Origin: a virus
Strand: one strand, 5' to 3'
Virus record (IMG/VR): IMGVR_UViG_3300031658_000080
Span: 1-27,899 of that record
DNA length: 27,899 nucleotides
The first letter of the stretch is position 1; each line of letters starts with the position of its first letter. Shown here in pieces: positions 4,949-27,899 of this stretch. Under the pieces are notes generated by a model. That model saw only the letters and a list, made by a program, of their open reading frames with translations. It searched no databases and was not told the DNA's origin. The position numbers and the translations under genes were made by a program.

Positions 4949-7900
4949 TTATACCTGGTAAGCATAAGTTATATTTCTAAAAGCTCGGTAACTAGTAGCT
5001 TGCCCATTAATTACCGTTAAGTCTTTAGTCACATTTTGGGCAGCTGAAATCCCTGCTGTTGCTTGGAAAACATAGCCATAGTAAGCACCTGCTTCGTTAG
5101 AAGCCCAATAGTATTTATTTAGTTCAAAGTTTGCAGCGTTTAGGTTTGATGTGCCGTTACTATTTACTGTTGTTATCGCAATATTAAGTCCTATTATATT
5201 TAAAGCATCCATTAATTCCCCATAAGAAGGAAGGTGCCATCCTGTGATAGTATTTGTACTTGCATCATATGGATCAGTTGCTATAACTTCTAAGTCGTTA
5301 GCTAATTTCGCAGCTATAAAAGCTTCTGAACAACTAGCTAATATATCAATCGTGTTTTGAGCTCCATGCCCGGTCCAGAACCCTAGATTTGTAATTGCAG
5401 TACCTTCACAACCCCACGATGGAGAGGAAGTGTCTATTTCTGGCGAAACTGTTATTCCTGTTCCCGTACCTGAATCCAAGTAGTAAACAACACCCCCTTC
5501 GTATGTATCTCCTATTTGTAAAGTATAATTACAAGAACCATCATCAGCAGTTGCTAGTGAATTATAATTATAAGCGGGAGTACCAGCATTATTGCCTGTG
5601 AAAAAAGAACCTGTGGTTATTGAACCTGAATTGCCATTACCATTATTAGTGTAGCTACTATCCATATTTCCATCATCCATACAGCCCGCAACTGCTGGTG
5701 GAAGTGTGGTAGTCGTTATGGAAACTACTGGTCCGTAAGCCCCAACAGCTCCACTATTTCCTTGAGATACTCCTGAATTAAAACAAACCCCTTGTAGGGT
5801 GAAAGTATACGGGGTATTTGGTGTTAAACCTAGGTAGGTTAATCCTGAGCCAGAACCTCCTGGAACGCTTCCTCCACCGTTGTAAGCTGTGTAGTCCCAA
5901 TGGGTATTATTAGCGTAAAGTGGGTCGTTGCCATTATCGAAAGGCGCAACAAAATTCATACCCAATTCAACATCAGTTATATTGTCAAAGATGAATGTCT
6001 CCGCCCCGTCGTTATTATTCCAGGAAGTCGCACAGTATCGACACGTTCCGTTATCCCCATGAGTAGCATCAGCGTCAAATTCCCAATTATTCGCGGTGCC
6101 ATCTGTACATCCCATAAAAGGTAGAGTTATACAAAGTGACGGGTCATTAGCTACCCAAGCACCACCACTACCATCTGTAACAACTACTTGATTTACGGCA
6201 TCCCAACAATCATCACAACCCTCAAGGTAAGTCATGTCAGTACACCCAACACAAGTGTCAAATACACAAGATCCGTCATCTGTATTTGCTAGGGCGTTGA
6301 AATTACAAGCACCATAAGCCTCACCATATAAAGTACCATCATCATCAGTACACCCAAGCAATATTGATGGTGGTAAAGTCAACACACTTGCTGCAGGTGC
6401 TGAGCTTGTCGCACCACACTGGCTTGTGATTGTTAGGTTTATATTTTGACTTGAAGAACCAGTTACCGGTGTTATACCCGTTATGTTGTAAGTTATAGTT
6501 CCAGTACCCCACCCTGAATAACCAGCTGTTGTCCCGTTGGAAGCGTTAACATTCCAAATTGAACTTCCATTTGAATTACTTATTGCAGGTTGTATCCAAA
6601 AGTCTATTACTGGCGCCGCGGGACTTACTGGTTCATCAAAAACCATAGTGAATGACGTGTCGGTTTCGTTACTAAATACTATATTTGTGGGTGGCATACA
6701 ATAAATACATGCATCATTACAGGTACCCGCATCATAGTTTTGTGCTAACAAGTCACCACAGTAAGTACAAGAACCATCATCAATAGTTGCAGAAGCATCA
6801 TAATTACACGCGGGTATACCGGTATTCGGACTGTCATATGCATCTCCACTAGCAAGAACTAAAAATCCACTATCCATGCAGCCCCCATATCCACATGATC
6901 CATCATCAGTATTTGCAAGAGAATCGTAATTATTTGCAAGAGGATCAATACATCCAAAAGCATAAGTAGCACAACCATTGGGGTTGGTGGCTGCATCATA
7001 AACACCAGAACCACTAACATTTGCGCTGGGATTATAATTATACATGTTAATATCAGTGCAACCAATAATAGTTGGAATACATGAACCATCATCTACAGTA
7101 GCTGTAGCATCATAGTTAAATGCAGTTGGATCAAGACAACCTAAGTAATAACAACTTCCATCATCAAAAGTAGCCAACGGGTCATAGTTCGATGCAGGTG
7201 CATCCATACATCCATCTACAAATGCAATACAATTACCATCACTAAAGGTAGCTGAAGGATTGTAGTTTTCAAAAACCTCATCCATACAGCCATAAATAAC
7301 CGCCGTCGATACACTTGTTAATCCTCCTATACCTTGCACGCTGAAATCAGCTGTGTTGTAATTATCAATAACAAGAGCAGAACTATTTATGTTAGCATCA
7401 ATACCGGTGAAATAACCAAACCACTTACCCTCTTTTTCTATAAACTCACTAATACCACCACTCTCTAAGTTAGTAAAGGTTGAGTTAACAAACCAACCAT
7501 CTACTTGTGTTAAGTTGTAGTATTCCCCATCCTCAACAATAACTCCATGTTCTCTATTCTCTAATATCCTAGCTTGAGAGCCTTCATAATTAAGCGCTCT
7601 AAATGACTTGACACTACCTGGTATTTCGTTGAAAATAACAGAAACTAAAGATGGTGTATAAACGTTATAAAAAGTGTTCCTATTCACCGCCTCATCATGA
7701 TGTATCCACAAGCCTTTGTCATTATTAATAGCTGATGAAGTGAAGGAATAATATTCATTTGCACAACTAATAGTGTTGTCCGGAGTAAAGGATTTAAAAC
7801 TAACCCAACCCTTTATGTCTTCCCTAAAGGATAGTGTTGAGCCACTTAAATAAATAATTGGGTCTGGTTCCGTTACCGGCTCTAATCGCGAGAAACTCAA

Positions 7901-8197
7901 GGTTGATGACCAACCCCCATAATCAAGACCAGTGACCGCACTTGTCATAACATTATAATTATGATTGTTAACCCCTGCATCTCCAGTTGAAATAAGTTGG
8001 TTAAGCGTTATCTTTATATACGTTGATGTGATTGAATATCCATTCCAAGGACCAGCAGCCGCTATAACTATACTTACAGTATCAACTGTCGTACCAGGCA
8101 AAATACCCGCACCAGTAACCGTGTCTCCAACCTGAACATCGGTACCGGGTGGAAGGTGGTATTCTCCTACTTGAACGTATGATGGGGGTGTAGGCAT
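4949..8197 (-). CDS. Receptor-binding-type tail protein with DDGSC repeats and C-type-lectin-like end
   Basis: This is a 1082-residue modular protein. Residues 1-90 hold a beta module (VQVGDTVTGAGILPGTTV) shared in style with the 532-residue neighbour, and 91-300 a beta-rich domain. Residues 303-480 carry tandem cysteine repeats of the form GCxD...NYxxxAxxDDGSC, with further copies near 615-645, 696-722 and 839-889. Two Fn3-like segments lie at about 500-610 and 722-835. Residues 892-1082 look like a DUF1566/C-type-lectin fold: GWHLPS at 986-991, YYWASNE at 1029-1035, YRAFRN at 1070-1075. The DDGSC repeat is known from surface proteins of marine Bacteroidetes and some viruses; its function is not settled. 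I infer a host-recognition fibre or adhesin. No signal peptide is present, as expected for a virion part. Confidence 0.8.
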   Translation of the reverse strand: MPTPPSYVQVGEYHLPPGTDVQVGDTVTGAGILPGTTVDTVSIVIAAAGPWNGYSITSTYIKITLNQLISTGDAGVNNHNYNVMTSAVTGLDYGGWSSTLSFSRLEPVTEPDPIIYLSGSTLSFREDIKGWVSFKSFTPDNTISCANEYYSFTSSAINNDKGLWIHHDEAVNRNTFYNVYTPSLVSVIFNEIPGSVKSFRALNYEGSQARILENREHGVIVEDGEYYNLTQVDGWFVNSTFTNLESGGISEFIEKEGKWFGYFTGIDANINSSALVIDNYNTADFSVQGIGGLTSVSTAVIYGCMDEVFENYNPSATFSDGNCIAFVDGCMDAPASNYDPLATFDDGSCYYLGCLDPTAFNYDATATVDDGSCIPTIIGCTDINMYNYNPSANVSGSGVYDAATNPNGCATYAFGCIDPLANNYDSLANTDDGSCGYGGCMDSGFLVLASGDAYDSPNTGIPACNYDASATIDDGSCTYCGDLLAQNYDAGTCNDACIYCMPPTNIVFSNETDTSFTMVFDEPVSPAAPVIDFWIQPAISNSNGSSIWNVNASNGTTAGYSGWGTGTITYNITGITPVTGSSSQNINLTITSQCGATSSAPAASVLTLPPSILLGCTDDDGTLYGEAYGACNFNALANTDDGSCVFDTCVGCTDMTYLEGCDDCWDAVNQVVVTDGSGGAWVANDPSLCITLPFMGCTDGTANNWEFDADATHGDNGTCRYCATSWNNNDGAETFIFDNITDVELGMNFVAPFDNGNDPLYANNTHWDYTAYNGGGSVPGGSGSGLTYLGLTPNTPYTFTLQGVCFNSGVSQGNSGAVGAYGPVVSITTTTLPPAVAGCMDDGNMDSSYTNNGNGNSGSITTGSFFTGNNAGTPAYNYNSLATADDGSCNYTLQIGDTYEGGVVYYLDSGTGTGITVSPEIDTSSPSWGCEGTAITNLGFWTGHGAQNTIDILASCSEAFIAAKLANDLEVIATDPYDASTNTITGWHLPSYGELMDALNIIGLNIAITTVNSNGTSNLNAANFELNKYYWASNEAGAYYGYVFQATAGISAAQNVTKDLTVINGQATSYRAFRNITYAYQV
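5531..5683 (-). repeat. Last, expanded DDGSC repeat unit
   Basis: Residues 839-889 of the 1082-residue protein form one DDGSC unit, with the first Cys at 839 and the DDGSC at 885-889. A long Asn/Gly/Ser-rich insertion (about 846-875) lies between its two halves. It directly precedes the lectin-like C-terminal domain and probably acts as the hinge or stalk cap. It belongs to the same repeat family as the main array. Confidence 0.6.
6758..7291 (-). repeat. Tandem cysteine-rich DDGSC repeat array
   Basis: Residues 303-480 of the 1082-residue protein contain six or seven consecutive units. Each starts with Gly-Cys-x-Asp, has Asn-Tyr in the middle and ends with Asp-Asp-Gly-Ser-Cys or a variant. 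First cysteines lie at residues 304, 330, 354, 380, 416 and 440. The unit starting at 380 is degenerate (ends NPNGC at 405-409) and the one at 440 has a roughly 14-residue insertion. Spacing of two Cys per unit suggests one intra-unit disulfide each, and the acidic loop could bind calcium; both are inferences. Confidence 0.8.
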
Positions 8198-23176: not shown

Positions 23177-23451
23177 TACTTAGATCTACCTTCTGCGAAT
23201 CCCTTAAAAGTTTTTTCCTTTGCCTCTTCAGGTGTTTTACCCTCAAGCAAGTCTTCTTCTTCTTGTATTCTGTTAAGTATCTCAAATGCGTCAAATATAG
23301 CTAGTTTTTTAGTTGCCGCTGCATTCTTTAGTTTATCAGCCGTTAAATCATCATCTGAATCAACAATGGCTTCCTTCGCTACTTTAATAAGTTCCTCAAC
23401 TGCTTTGTGCCCAGCCTGGATTATATTCCTCTTCGTTTCCTTGATGTTCAT
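23176..23451 (-). CDS. Small helical protein in small-terminase position
   Basis: I choose the ATG at 23451 (91 residues, starting MNIKETKRNIIQAGHKAVEE), not the further upstream ATG at 23520. The extra 23 residues lie wholly inside the preceding gene and look like random overlap. The protein is helical and charged (VEELIKVAKEAIVDSDDD, then NAAATKKLAIFDAFEILNRI) with no DNA-binding helix-turn-helix that I can see. It still overlaps the GroES-like gene by 56 bases. Its place directly before the large terminase, with overlapping stop and start, suggests a small terminase or packaging accessory. It is shorter than usual small terminases, so this stays a hypothesis. Confidence 0.65.
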   Translation of the reverse strand: MNIKETKRNIIQAGHKAVEELIKVAKEAIVDSDDDLTADKLKNAAATKKLAIFDAFEILNRIQEEEDLLEGKTPEEAKEKTFKGFAEGRSK

Positions 23452-23986
23452 ACTTGATTGTAATAAAATTAGATAAAACTCGATATAGTCTCTCGCCATC
23501 AACGATAAACTCGTATTCACTACTTGGACGAAATCCGACTAAGTCGTTTTTCTTAACCGTACCGTCAGTGTATTTAACGATACCTTGTAGTGGTTTTTCG
23601 GATTCGATATTAAATTGGTCTGTAGCTTTTAATGGTGCTACGAAACAATATCCTTTAGGACAAATCCATTTGTCGTCTCTTTTGTATAAAAAGATCTGAT
23701 CTTTTCCTATGAAGTAAGTTGATTCGTTAAAATAGCTTCTACTATTCTTTTCAACTCCTTTTACGTTATGCCATCGTCTAAAGACATTATGGTGTACTAA
23801 AACCGTATCACCAGGTTTAATTTCTGTGTGACCAACAATCGGGGTTGATACTACAACAGCTTCTCTATTAACATACTCGTGATTATAAATCTCTGTATTT
23901 AGAATAAGCTCTCCACCATCTAGTTTCTTGGTGTTATTGTATCTCTCTCCTTTTGGCGTTACAACAAAGTCGTAAACGCTTTTCAT
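23396..23986 (-). CDS. Tandem GroES-like (double co-chaperonin) protein
   Basis: The 196-residue protein reads as two GroES-like beta barrels in a row. The first half (4-102) has FVVTPK at the start, GGELILNTE, VNREAVVVST, EIKPGDTVLVHH (55-66) and a closing strand with KDQIFLYK. The second half (111-180) repeats the order: GYCFVAPLKATD, KPLQGIVKYTDG, KKNDLVGFRPSSEYEF, VDGERLYRVLSNFITIKYE. These mimic GroES elements 'RVLVKRL', 'GxVVAVG', 'VKVGDxVLF', 'xDGEEYLI' and 'DILAVI'. It lies in the packaging/head cluster. T4 gp31 shows that phages can supply their own co-chaperonin for capsid folding. The likeness is by eye; a non-chaperone structural barrel is the alternative. It overlaps the next gene by 56 bases. 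Confidence 0.65.
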   Translation of the reverse strand: MKSVYDFVVTPKGERYNNTKKLDGGELILNTEIYNHEYVNREAVVVSTPIVGHTEIKPGDTVLVHHNVFRRWHNVKGVEKNSRSYFNESTYFIGKDQIFLYKRDDKWICPKGYCFVAPLKATDQFNIESEKPLQGIVKYTDGTVKKNDLVGFRPSSEYEFIVDGERLYRVLSNFITIKYEHQGNEEEYNPGWAQSS

Positions 23987-24207
23987 TAGTATTCGAGGTT
24001 GTATTCAACCGATACCGCCATATTCTTGTTAAAATCCTTCCAAGGCAAAACGTCTTTTTTCTTTTTAATGTAGATGGAGAACTTTGTCTCTTCTTCTACT
24101 ATATCGCAGATAGTGTGCCCACCATACACTTCTTGCCCCACGGCATAGTGCATAGCGTCACTCTTGTAATCTTTACCGATACTAATCTTACGAATTAACT
24201 TTGCCAT
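23986..24207 (-). CDS. Small conserved-looking protein of unknown function
   Basis: The 73-residue product starts MAKLIRKISIGKDYKSDAMH and has VGQEVYGGHTICDIV, a Lys-rich beta strand (FSIYIKKKKDVLPWKDF) and an acidic/aromatic end (VSVEYNLEY). It appears to be a compact beta protein without cysteine pairs or membrane segments. I recall like-patterned small proteins next to terminase genes of Bacteroidetes phages, with no function. The stop overlaps the start of the GroES-like gene and the start lies 20 bases inside the upstream gene, so the three are translationally coupled. Confidence 0.7.
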   Translation of the reverse strand: MAKLIRKISIGKDYKSDAMHYAVGQEVYGGHTICDIVEEETKFSIYIKKKKDVLPWKDFNKNMAVSVEYNLEY

Positions 24208-24490
24208 TCTCTGGATAGTTTATCATTCCGTCTTGAATGTTGATGTCAAAAGTACCATATTCTTTTTCAAATTCACTTTGCAAAAAAGTAAGCTCATCTC
24301 TAAGCCCAGCGATACCATGCATCATTTCATGTTTTTTAATCTCTAAAGATCCAATTTCTAATTGAGTTCTATTAATGCCATTCACGGTATCTTGAACTTT
24401 CTTTAATTGCTCTTCGGTAATTCTTTCAGGCTTGATACTCTTTAGTTCTTTGATCTTTGCATTTGTGCCCTTCGTTTTTGTTGTTGCCAT
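24188..24490 (-). CDS. Small coiled-coil protein of unknown function
   Basis: The 100-residue protein has a Lys/Thr-rich start and then one long helix (about 20-78, with EEQLKKVQDTVNGINRTQLE) of heptad character. It ends in FDINIQDGMINYPENGKVNS, a short beta or disordered tail. It looks like an oligomeric coiled coil. It leads the small-gene group before the terminase and is preceded by an A/T-only AATTT leader. A packaging or assembly accessory is possible but not shown. Confidence 0.7.
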   Translation of the reverse strand: MATTKTKGTNAKIKELKSIKPERITEEQLKKVQDTVNGINRTQLEIGSLEIKKHEMMHGIAGLRDELTFLQSEFEKEYGTFDINIQDGMINYPENGKVNS

Positions 24491-27173: not shown

Positions 27174-27623
27174 TTATTTATTTCCATTATTTGCATCATT
27201 CTCCCAAGGAAAACCAGTATCTCCGGCCTCCTTCCATTTTCCGTCCACCATTATAGAATCTACTCCATCTATATCTTTTCTTTCAAATCTATCTCCATTG
27301 TACATGATATGATCATCGTCATAAGACAATTTACCAAGCTTTATGTCTGTTGCATGTCTCATCTCATGATTAAGTGTTTCGTTATATTCTGGGCTTCCAG
27401 GGGTTAACTTATCACTCATATATATACTTCCATCCATATTAGCTTCCCCTAATATTCTATATCTATCGGTATCCGGTAGTGGGGTTGGTATAATAGGTGT
27501 TCCGGGAATAGTGGTCTGCTCTTCACGCTTGAAACTAAGTTTAGTCTTAATCTCACCGTTACCAGCTTGAAAACCCATTTCTTTTCCTAGTTTAAACCCA
27601 GTACTTTTCTTGAAATTTGGCAT
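27174..27623 (-). CDS. HExxH metallopeptidase-like protein, probable lysis or virion factor
   Basis: The 149-residue protein carries the zinc-binding motif His86-Glu87-x-x-His90 (NETLNHEMRHATD). Glu141 in FPWENDAN is a possible third ligand, as in gluzincins. Residues 1-35 are basic and unstructured. A Thr/Pro linker (TTIPGTPIIPTPLP) precedes the catalytic half (52-149). No signal peptide is seen. It lies directly next to the holin with no gap, which suggests a role in lysis, but a virion-associated protease is equally possible. Proteins with 'HEMxHATD...FPWExxA' occur, as I recall, in other Bacteroidetes phages, with no characterised member known to me. Confidence 0.7.
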   Translation of the reverse strand: MPNFKKSTGFKLGKEMGFQAGNGEIKTKLSFKREEQTTIPGTPIIPTPLPDTDRYRILGEANMDGSIYMSDKLTPGSPEYNETLNHEMRHATDIKLGKLSYDDDHIMYNGDRFERKDIDGVDSIMVDGKWKEAGDTGFPWENDANNGNK

Positions 27624-27624
27624 A

Positions 27625-27891
27625 TTACCTGTCTTTATCTTTTATCATATCATCTATAGATTTATTAAAAACCTTGTCAGAATATGTTTTATTATTATAG
27701 AAAACACTTCTCTCGGAAGTAGGTAAATCTTCTTCACCCAGTAGAACTCTATATATTCTACTTATTATTTGCGAGCATTTAAACGATGTCTTAAATACAG
27801 AGTACTTTATAGTTGTTCTGTTTCTGTGTCTCCACGTTTCAATCCATCCTTCTCGCCTTAATCTTTCCCAACGGTTTTTATCCCAACTCAT
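27625..27891 (-). CDS. Small basic protein of unknown function
   Basis: The 88-residue product starts MSWDKNRWERLRREGWIETW and is rich in Arg, Lys, Trp and Tyr in the first half. An Asp/Lys-rich end (FNKSIDDMIKDKDR) follows a variable middle. No signal peptide, membrane segment or zinc site is visible. Basic charge suggests nucleic-acid or membrane contact, but nothing specific. It ends one base before the metallopeptidase-like gene starts. The upstream leader is cut after eight bases by the window edge, so a promoter cannot be judged. Confidence 0.65.
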   Translation of the reverse strand: MSWDKNRWERLRREGWIETWRHRNRTTIKYSVFKTSFKCSQIISRIYRVLLGEEDLPTSERSVFYNNKTYSDKVFNKSIDDMIKDKDR

Positions 27892-27899
27892 GGTATAAA

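Follow-up and report, generated by a model that had tools for sequence, protein, structure and literature searches.

Near the right edge of a 27,899-base virus record, which was analysed at its full length and is called the window here, a small open reading frame (ORF) with an HExxH motif abuts a gene of a holin family. The question raised by this locus is whether the encoded protein stands in place of a classical endolysin, as the original prediction proposed, or contributes to the infection in some other way. The ORF placed by that prediction at 27174-27623 was recovered with exactly these ends, on the minus strand, as a protein of 149 residues (Table 1). Its start is separated by one base from the stop of the upstream ORF, and its stop codon is followed without a gap by the start of the 130-residue holin-family ORF. 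The upstream ORF has a winged-helix-like look by eye and found no family match in a profile search; an ORF that resembles it in MW202828 carries the annotation 'repressor protein'.

Table 1. Features of the locus, with positions counted from the first base of the window.
Feature	Position	Strand	Basis or remark
HExxH metallopeptidase-like protein	27174..27623	minus	149 aa, ATG start
HEMRH motif, residues 86-90	27354..27368	minus	kept in all rows of the 132-row and 8-row alignments
PWENDA, residues 139-144, with E141 as candidate third zinc ligand	27192..27209	minus	conservation and short C-terminal helix in model
N-terminal tail of low confidence (residues 1-38), containing FKLG and GEIKTKLSF	27510..27623	minus	pLDDT, tag statistics
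Upstream ORF, cut by window edge	27625..27899	minus	136-146 aa in relatives
Holin-family membrane protein, 130 aa	26781..27173	minus	phrog_3427 'holin' 5.1e-30

From composition, 0.0019 chance occurrences of HExxH are expected in a protein of this length, and 0.12 across all window ORFs of at least 60 residues. In an alignment of 132 rows, consisting of the window protein and 131 distinct relatives, H86, E87, H90 and E141 were each kept in 132/132 rows, and on this ground a chance origin for the HEMRH motif was set aside. D93 was kept in 131/132 rows; H105 was kept in only 40/132 and was therefore set aside as the third ligand. For four pairs of genes analysed by the NG86 method, the dN/dS values were 0.10/1.69, 0.14/1.13, 0.05/0.69 and 0.10/1.19, all well below 0.2, and silent changes greatly outnumbered replacements. 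The gene is under purifying selection, and the zincin-like residues are its most constant part. Sequence analysis of the protein revealed neither a signal peptide nor a membrane span, and it carries neither a wall-binding domain nor an attached DNA-binding domain. A second HExxH in the window, HEMMH, occurs in a coiled-coil-like ORF at 24188-24490, where the relatives show HELLH, HNLMH or HSLLH by eye; since the relatives are without HEMMH, it was set aside as probably a chance motif.

An AlphaFold2 model built from 83 rows had a mean pLDDT of 76.6, with residues ~60-135 averaging ~91, low values over the first 38 residues, and values below 50 for residues 1-21 and 24-36. In this model the HExxH lies in a helix (residues 78-96) that is followed by three strand pairs and then by a short helix (residues 139-144) carrying E141. 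An HExxH with a downstream conserved Glu in a helix is the sequence pattern of the gluzincins (clan MA(E)), and it is found here with E141 in 132/132 rows. Comparison with solved structures using VIA-align 2 placed PprI first (Z 5.3, rmsd 3.6, 85 residues aligned), followed by ArdC (4.8), SPRTN (4.7), selecase (4.2), abylysin (4.2) and VgrG2b (3.6); on the tool's own scale all of these scores are weak, and a 23-row model gave the same leaders. Nearly all of the rows at Z of 3 or more are HExxH proteins, mostly HExxH zincins, and the exceptions (GAR, frataxin and SH2) align with residues 98-149 only. Foldseek produced no row at E 0.001 or better against the PDB, where the top rows were unrelated, and one row at 3.5e-4 against BFVD (a 301-aa viral protein), with the following rows at 4e-3 or above and including SprT-like phage proteins. 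The absence of a family from such structure lists does not exclude that family. When PDB sequences were searched with profiles, profile A1 returned chance-like rows only, while profile A3 put NFAT rows first, ahead of selecase, SPRTN and IrrE (E 0.42-1.4), with no significant match. Judged by the weak structural scores together with the invariant residues, the protein looks like a minimal gluzincin-like zincin. The proposal of a small zincin-like protein with an HExxH and a conserved candidate third ligand at E141 is thus supported by both the 132 aligned rows and the HExxH proteins in the structure list.

The family to which the protein belongs was approached through a divergent short form, a 101-aa ORF on the minus strand of L197 (1453-1758), from a bacterial bin labelled Sphingobacteriales that also holds one long-form relative, L093. 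The short form is 33% identical to the window protein, and hhalign of the long-form profile (A2) against it gave a probability of 99.2 and an E value of 3e-19. Against PHROGs, the short form matched phrog_10499 (5.5e-10) and phrog_16532 (8.4e-10), and the window protein compared directly with phrog_10499 reached 0.012 only. In the phage collection, the short form matched proteins of Methylophilales phage Melnitz (2e-6), Ochrobactrum phage OC (8e-4) and Tenacibaculum phage pT24 (1e-3), with weaker rows in cyanophages. An alignment of eight superfamily proteins left M1, H86, E87, H90, G110, P139, W140, E141 and A144 invariant, so that the signature HExxH..G..PWExxA is common to the window protein and diverse phage members (8/8). 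The window protein thus has the invariant residues of the phage HExxH/PWExxA family (the phrog_10499/16532 kind) and, by way of the short form, its profile similarity. It is very probably a metallopeptidase of this family. By these sequence comparisons it represents a branch with a long tail within a phage family that is known but uncharacterised and that also occurs in T4-like phages, and for this reason its kind is not new. The window protein shares the HExxH and PWExxA with phrog_10499 and phrog_16532 but exceeds them in the length of its tail and of its C-terminal hairpins.

Against Pfam, the window protein scored 14.1 of the required 25 to Peptidase_M91 and 12.4 of 25.6 to SprT-like, with M78 not listed, and no score passed its curated cut-off. 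The same was true of the superfamily members when scored against SprT-like, M78 and DUF6782, where one relative reached 22.4 bits for SprT-like (cut-off 25.6). One record among the relatives is annotated as ImmA/IrrE family, and another notes PF06114. An NCBIfam search with the window protein returned nothing, and no match was obtained to known endolysin profiles (M15, amidase, muramidase). A metzincin was rejected, as the motif HExxHxxGxxH/D, in the form given in PMC8235301, is not present: the window reads HEMRHATDIKL, with D at the place of the G. None of the profile and structure searches made here names a function for the protein.

The neighbouring gene was examined by profile as well. 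In addition to its phrog_3427 match, the 130-aa ORF scored 22.0 bits to Pfam GTA_holin_3TM (PF11351), under the 24.8 cut-off, and it has one hydrophobic segment over threshold, starting from residue 69. Relatives of the HExxH gene were collected from IMG/VR: a scan with the window protein gave 27, a profile scan gave 564 confirmed stretches out of 588 (80 kept), a scan with a divergent member gave 249 confirmed out of 256 (80 kept), and a short-form scan gave 400 confirmed viral stretches. The gene is carried by marine phages related to those of Flavobacteriia. No match was found when the window protein and the L093 form were searched against the phage collection by tblastn. When 395 genomes from the phylum to which the L093 bin belongs were searched with a profile, the only matches were two in this bin and a further row, at E 0.008, that lacks the motif region.

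The ORFs around each HExxH gene, called with our own ORF caller, were then searched with an iterated profile built from the 130-aa ORF. A holin-family member lay downstream at 24/27, 61/65, 70/80 and 72/76 loci in four partly overlapping sets, of which the L002-L028 and L029-L093 sets share contigs and the last is the short form. The median gaps between the two genes were 250, 225, 1 and -1 bp, respectively, and 54 of the 72 short-form matches were within 1 kb of the HExxH gene. The short-form set came from 80 fetched stretches, from which L254, L258 and L267 were dropped because a regular expression found no HExxH, and one more for a short flank. A protein search found a holin-family ORF in 11/11 records tested, including L005 and L019; since both had been scored as misses, the misses in the pair counts are upper bounds. 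The short form on L197 also adjoins a holin-family ORF (3.3e-19 to phrog_3427). A holin-family ORF thus abuts the HExxH gene, in line with the original prediction, and the pair is conserved in many relatives. At two loci (L053:10407-10628 and L094:9532-9816) the two genes are separated by an additional small membrane ORF with a sub-cut-off TssN match (1e-4). Elsewhere among phages the family has different neighbours, namely baseplate genes in pT24, the tail region in S-SM2 and, by a weak match, a DNA methyltransferase in CRP-9; in Melnitz, a T4-like relative, the copy is ~0.8 kb past a GH108 gene, one short ORF beyond the two that come after that gene. The holin link is consequently a trait of this phage group and not of the whole family, and because relatives adjoin tail, baseplate or DNA-metabolism genes, the fold of the family is not tied to lysis.

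The position of the pair was compared with that of lysis genes in sister phages. A search with the window's terminase matched 87 phage records, led by MW202828 (62%) and then Elemovirus (45%); a profile search for the HExxH gene did not find it in either. In the interval between GroEL/GroES and the terminase, MW202828 has Phage_holin_4_1 (6.5e-9), a membrane-anchored ORF and M15_3 (4.4e-15), and in the same chaperonin-terminase interval Elemovirus has M15_4 (1.2e-15). Because both phages hold an M15 lysis gene in the matching interval, the HExxH-holin pair sits in a syntenic lysis slot. The Peptidase_M15_3/M15_4 endolysins that fill it differ from the window protein in motif and fold and show no match to it.

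In the window itself, PF08291 (M15_3) and PF01510 (Amidase_2) were looked for and no match was found. Of 39 long-form virus records, a set that includes the window, 5 contained M15_3. Four of these have it 40-48 kb downstream of the HExxH gene; the fifth, G035, has its M15 ~21.6 kb upstream and was left out of the downstream count; a bacterial bin was also left out since its M15 rows are on contigs other than that of the HExxH gene. Most of the other long-form records, including the window, end before the 40-48 kb point; G025 and G028 stop at the slot or short of it. The slot is also reached by two further long records, in which it holds DUF5675 (6.4e-27, G031) or a phrog_33083 'endolysin'-like protein (2e-13, G038), and in G020 the M15 is accompanied by an SLT-domain protein. 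Wherever this separate late locus is visible, a wall enzyme or a candidate for one is thus the rule, so that the HExxH protein would be no more than a supplement to the main endolysin. With M15 or another wall-enzyme candidate in the six long-form records that reach the slot and M15_3 in 13 of 20 short-form records, the idea of a substitute for the classical endolysin was not upheld. Nor do relatives have lysis genes beyond the right edge, where the original prediction had proposed to look for them; they have a regulator-like ORF, small proteins, GroES and GroEL there, and the wall-enzyme slot lies past the left edge. The alternative suggestion of a scaffold-type protease found no supporting neighbour or profile, and a prohead or scaffold protease was set aside on these grounds.

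Other features of the late region were observed in the same records. Immediately upstream of the HExxH gene, four relatives (L061, L053, L071 and L093; for example L053:7287-9093) encode a GroEL (phrog_5725, 7e-134) and a GroES (3.8e-13) of their own; another GroES-like protein, longer than the first, comes before the terminase (23396-23986 in the window; phrog_13932, 1e-18). A PAP2-superfamily protein is found in the late region of L096 (5408-5950; 1.2e-8) and L187 (9271-9813; 3.4e-7), and L053:6333-6647 encodes a small secreted-looking protein with a match at the cut-off (2.4e-6) to DUF2279, a predicted periplasmic lipoprotein. Positions 4949-8197 of the window encode a 1082-aa protein with repeats of the form GCMD..A.NYD..A..DDGSC, and similar repeats occur in late genes of relatives, for example L096:6610-9084.

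The low-confidence tail of the window protein opens with FKLG, and a tag of the pattern F[KRNQ][LM][KRGSMN] within the first 25 residues was counted around the long-form genes. The tag was present in 60/65 and 59/67 HExxH ORFs and in 41/992 and 38/738 other distinct ORFs, compared with a background of 9/6059 and 5/3307 internal 25-residue blocks. All 79 tagged neighbours share the strand of the HExxH gene. Around the short form, 5/855 other ORFs carry the tag, and 1/114 in two sister phages. The narrower form FK[LM][KRG] is common to otherwise dissimilar small late proteins, with many ORFs in L002-L182, far above the internal background. A packaging signal, a targeting signal or a cleavage tag are our guesses at its nature.

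Several known systems resemble the window protein in part. The ImmA/IrrE-like (M78, PF06114), SprT-like (PF10263) and DUF6782 proteins share the HExxH helix and, in some cases, a third Glu; remote superfamily members come close to them in score, and PprI and SPRTN are among the leading structural rows, at Z 5.3 and 4.7 only. The minigluzincins selecase and abylysin have a minimal size and a similar core, and selecase is also a weak profile match (0.42); unlike the window protein, both are archaeal and have no phage or holin context, and their scores are weak. The C-terminal gluzincin of VgrG2b of P. aeruginosa, as described in PMC6899460, has an HExxH with a third Glu ligand and acts in the periplasm; in contrast to the window protein it is fused to a T6SS spike, and its structural score is low. 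According to PMC8235301, Mtz-Tim of Listeria consists of a phage-derived secreted metzincin and its partner, is often found downstream of the holin-lysin genes in prophages, much as the HExxH gene adjoins a holin-family gene in the window, and has accessory lysis functions; it has a metzincin motif and a Sec signal, whereas the window protein has neither. Mtz-Tim and VgrG2b may serve as precedents by analogy.

The chief rival to a role in lysis is an IrrE/ImmA- or SprT-like protease with a regulatory or repair function, which would act in the cytoplasm on phage or host DNA-bound proteins, the holin neighbourhood being an operon habit of the lineage. It is consistent with PprI, ArdC and SPRTN as leading structural rows, with the superfamily relative that approaches the SprT-like cut-off, with the ImmA/IrrE and PF06114 annotations, and with the lack of an export signal next to a gene that may encode a DNA-binding regulator. 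However, every profile score is under its curated cut-off, no DNA-binding domain is attached, and the linkage to the holin family recurs across wide divergence; we regard this explanation as somewhat unlikely. A new peptidoglycan endopeptidase that acts as the main endolysin would fit a gene that abuts a holin-family gene and fills the interval in which sister phages have M15, and M15/M23-like lysins are likewise zinc enzymes. This reading was set aside, as wall enzymes or candidates for them are encoded elsewhere in the long-form records that reach the slot and M15 in 13 of the 20 short-form records; the lack of a wall-binding domain and the occurrence of family members outside lysis cassettes in other phages also make it decidedly improbable.

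The enrichment of the tag in neighbouring ORFs over internal blocks, and its presence in most of the HExxH ORFs, could point instead to a virion cargo or maturation protease, one of several N-terminally tagged late proteins packaged in the particle, that possibly cuts the tag from itself and others. The tag is nearly absent from the other short-form phage ORFs even though the HExxH gene is present there, and we consider this candidate quite unlikely. Because similarity to solved enzymes is weak and enzyme activity is predicted only, a pseudo-enzyme or structural protein that keeps only the fold was also weighed, but in such a protein the catalytic Glu would be free to drift, and H86, E87, H90 and E141 are invariant in 132/132 and 8/8 diverse members; this is very improbable indeed.

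Given the gene and its constraint, the lack of a membrane span and the recurring holin-family link, our best explanation, to which we assign a probability of roughly 0.42, is a small soluble zinc metallopeptidase of the HExxH/PWExxA family that is made late, is translationally linked to the holin-like protein and is accessory to the main endolysin. In this mechanism, H86, H90 and E141 would hold a zinc ion and E87 would act as the base in cleavage. The protein, translated in linkage with the holin-like membrane protein late in infection, would remain cytoplasmic until the putative holin permeabilises the inner membrane; since it has neither a signal peptide nor a membrane span, its export would depend on the putative holin. 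Once released, it may cleave an envelope target, either a protein or a peptide, and so assist a main endolysin (M15 or a replacement) encoded elsewhere. Against this explanation, only a profile match identifies the putative holin, whose Pfam score is below the cut-off, the best structural Z is just 5.3, and in other phages the family has neighbours unrelated to lysis. The accessory lysis role taken by itself is tentative, at a little under even odds. In a more elaborate version, which appears unlikely, the two genes would form a late module in which a minimal zinc protease co-translated with a holin acts on the envelope or on the holin to time lysis, the N-terminal tag, also present on many small late proteins, marks common targets or cargo, and the whole is conserved across a large uncultured phage group.

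Under the preferred accessory reading, the HExxH protein probably helps at the end of infection and does not replace the normal wall-cutting enzyme. The gene occurs beside a holin-family gene in at least several hundred contigs of uncultured marine phages, and the small size and clear active-site residues of the protein make it directly testable. Mtz-Tim (PMC8235301) indicates that accessory lysis roles for such proteases exist. If the protein is an accessory lysis protease, it would represent a third enzyme kind in phage lysis, a gluzincin, beside endolysins and spanins.
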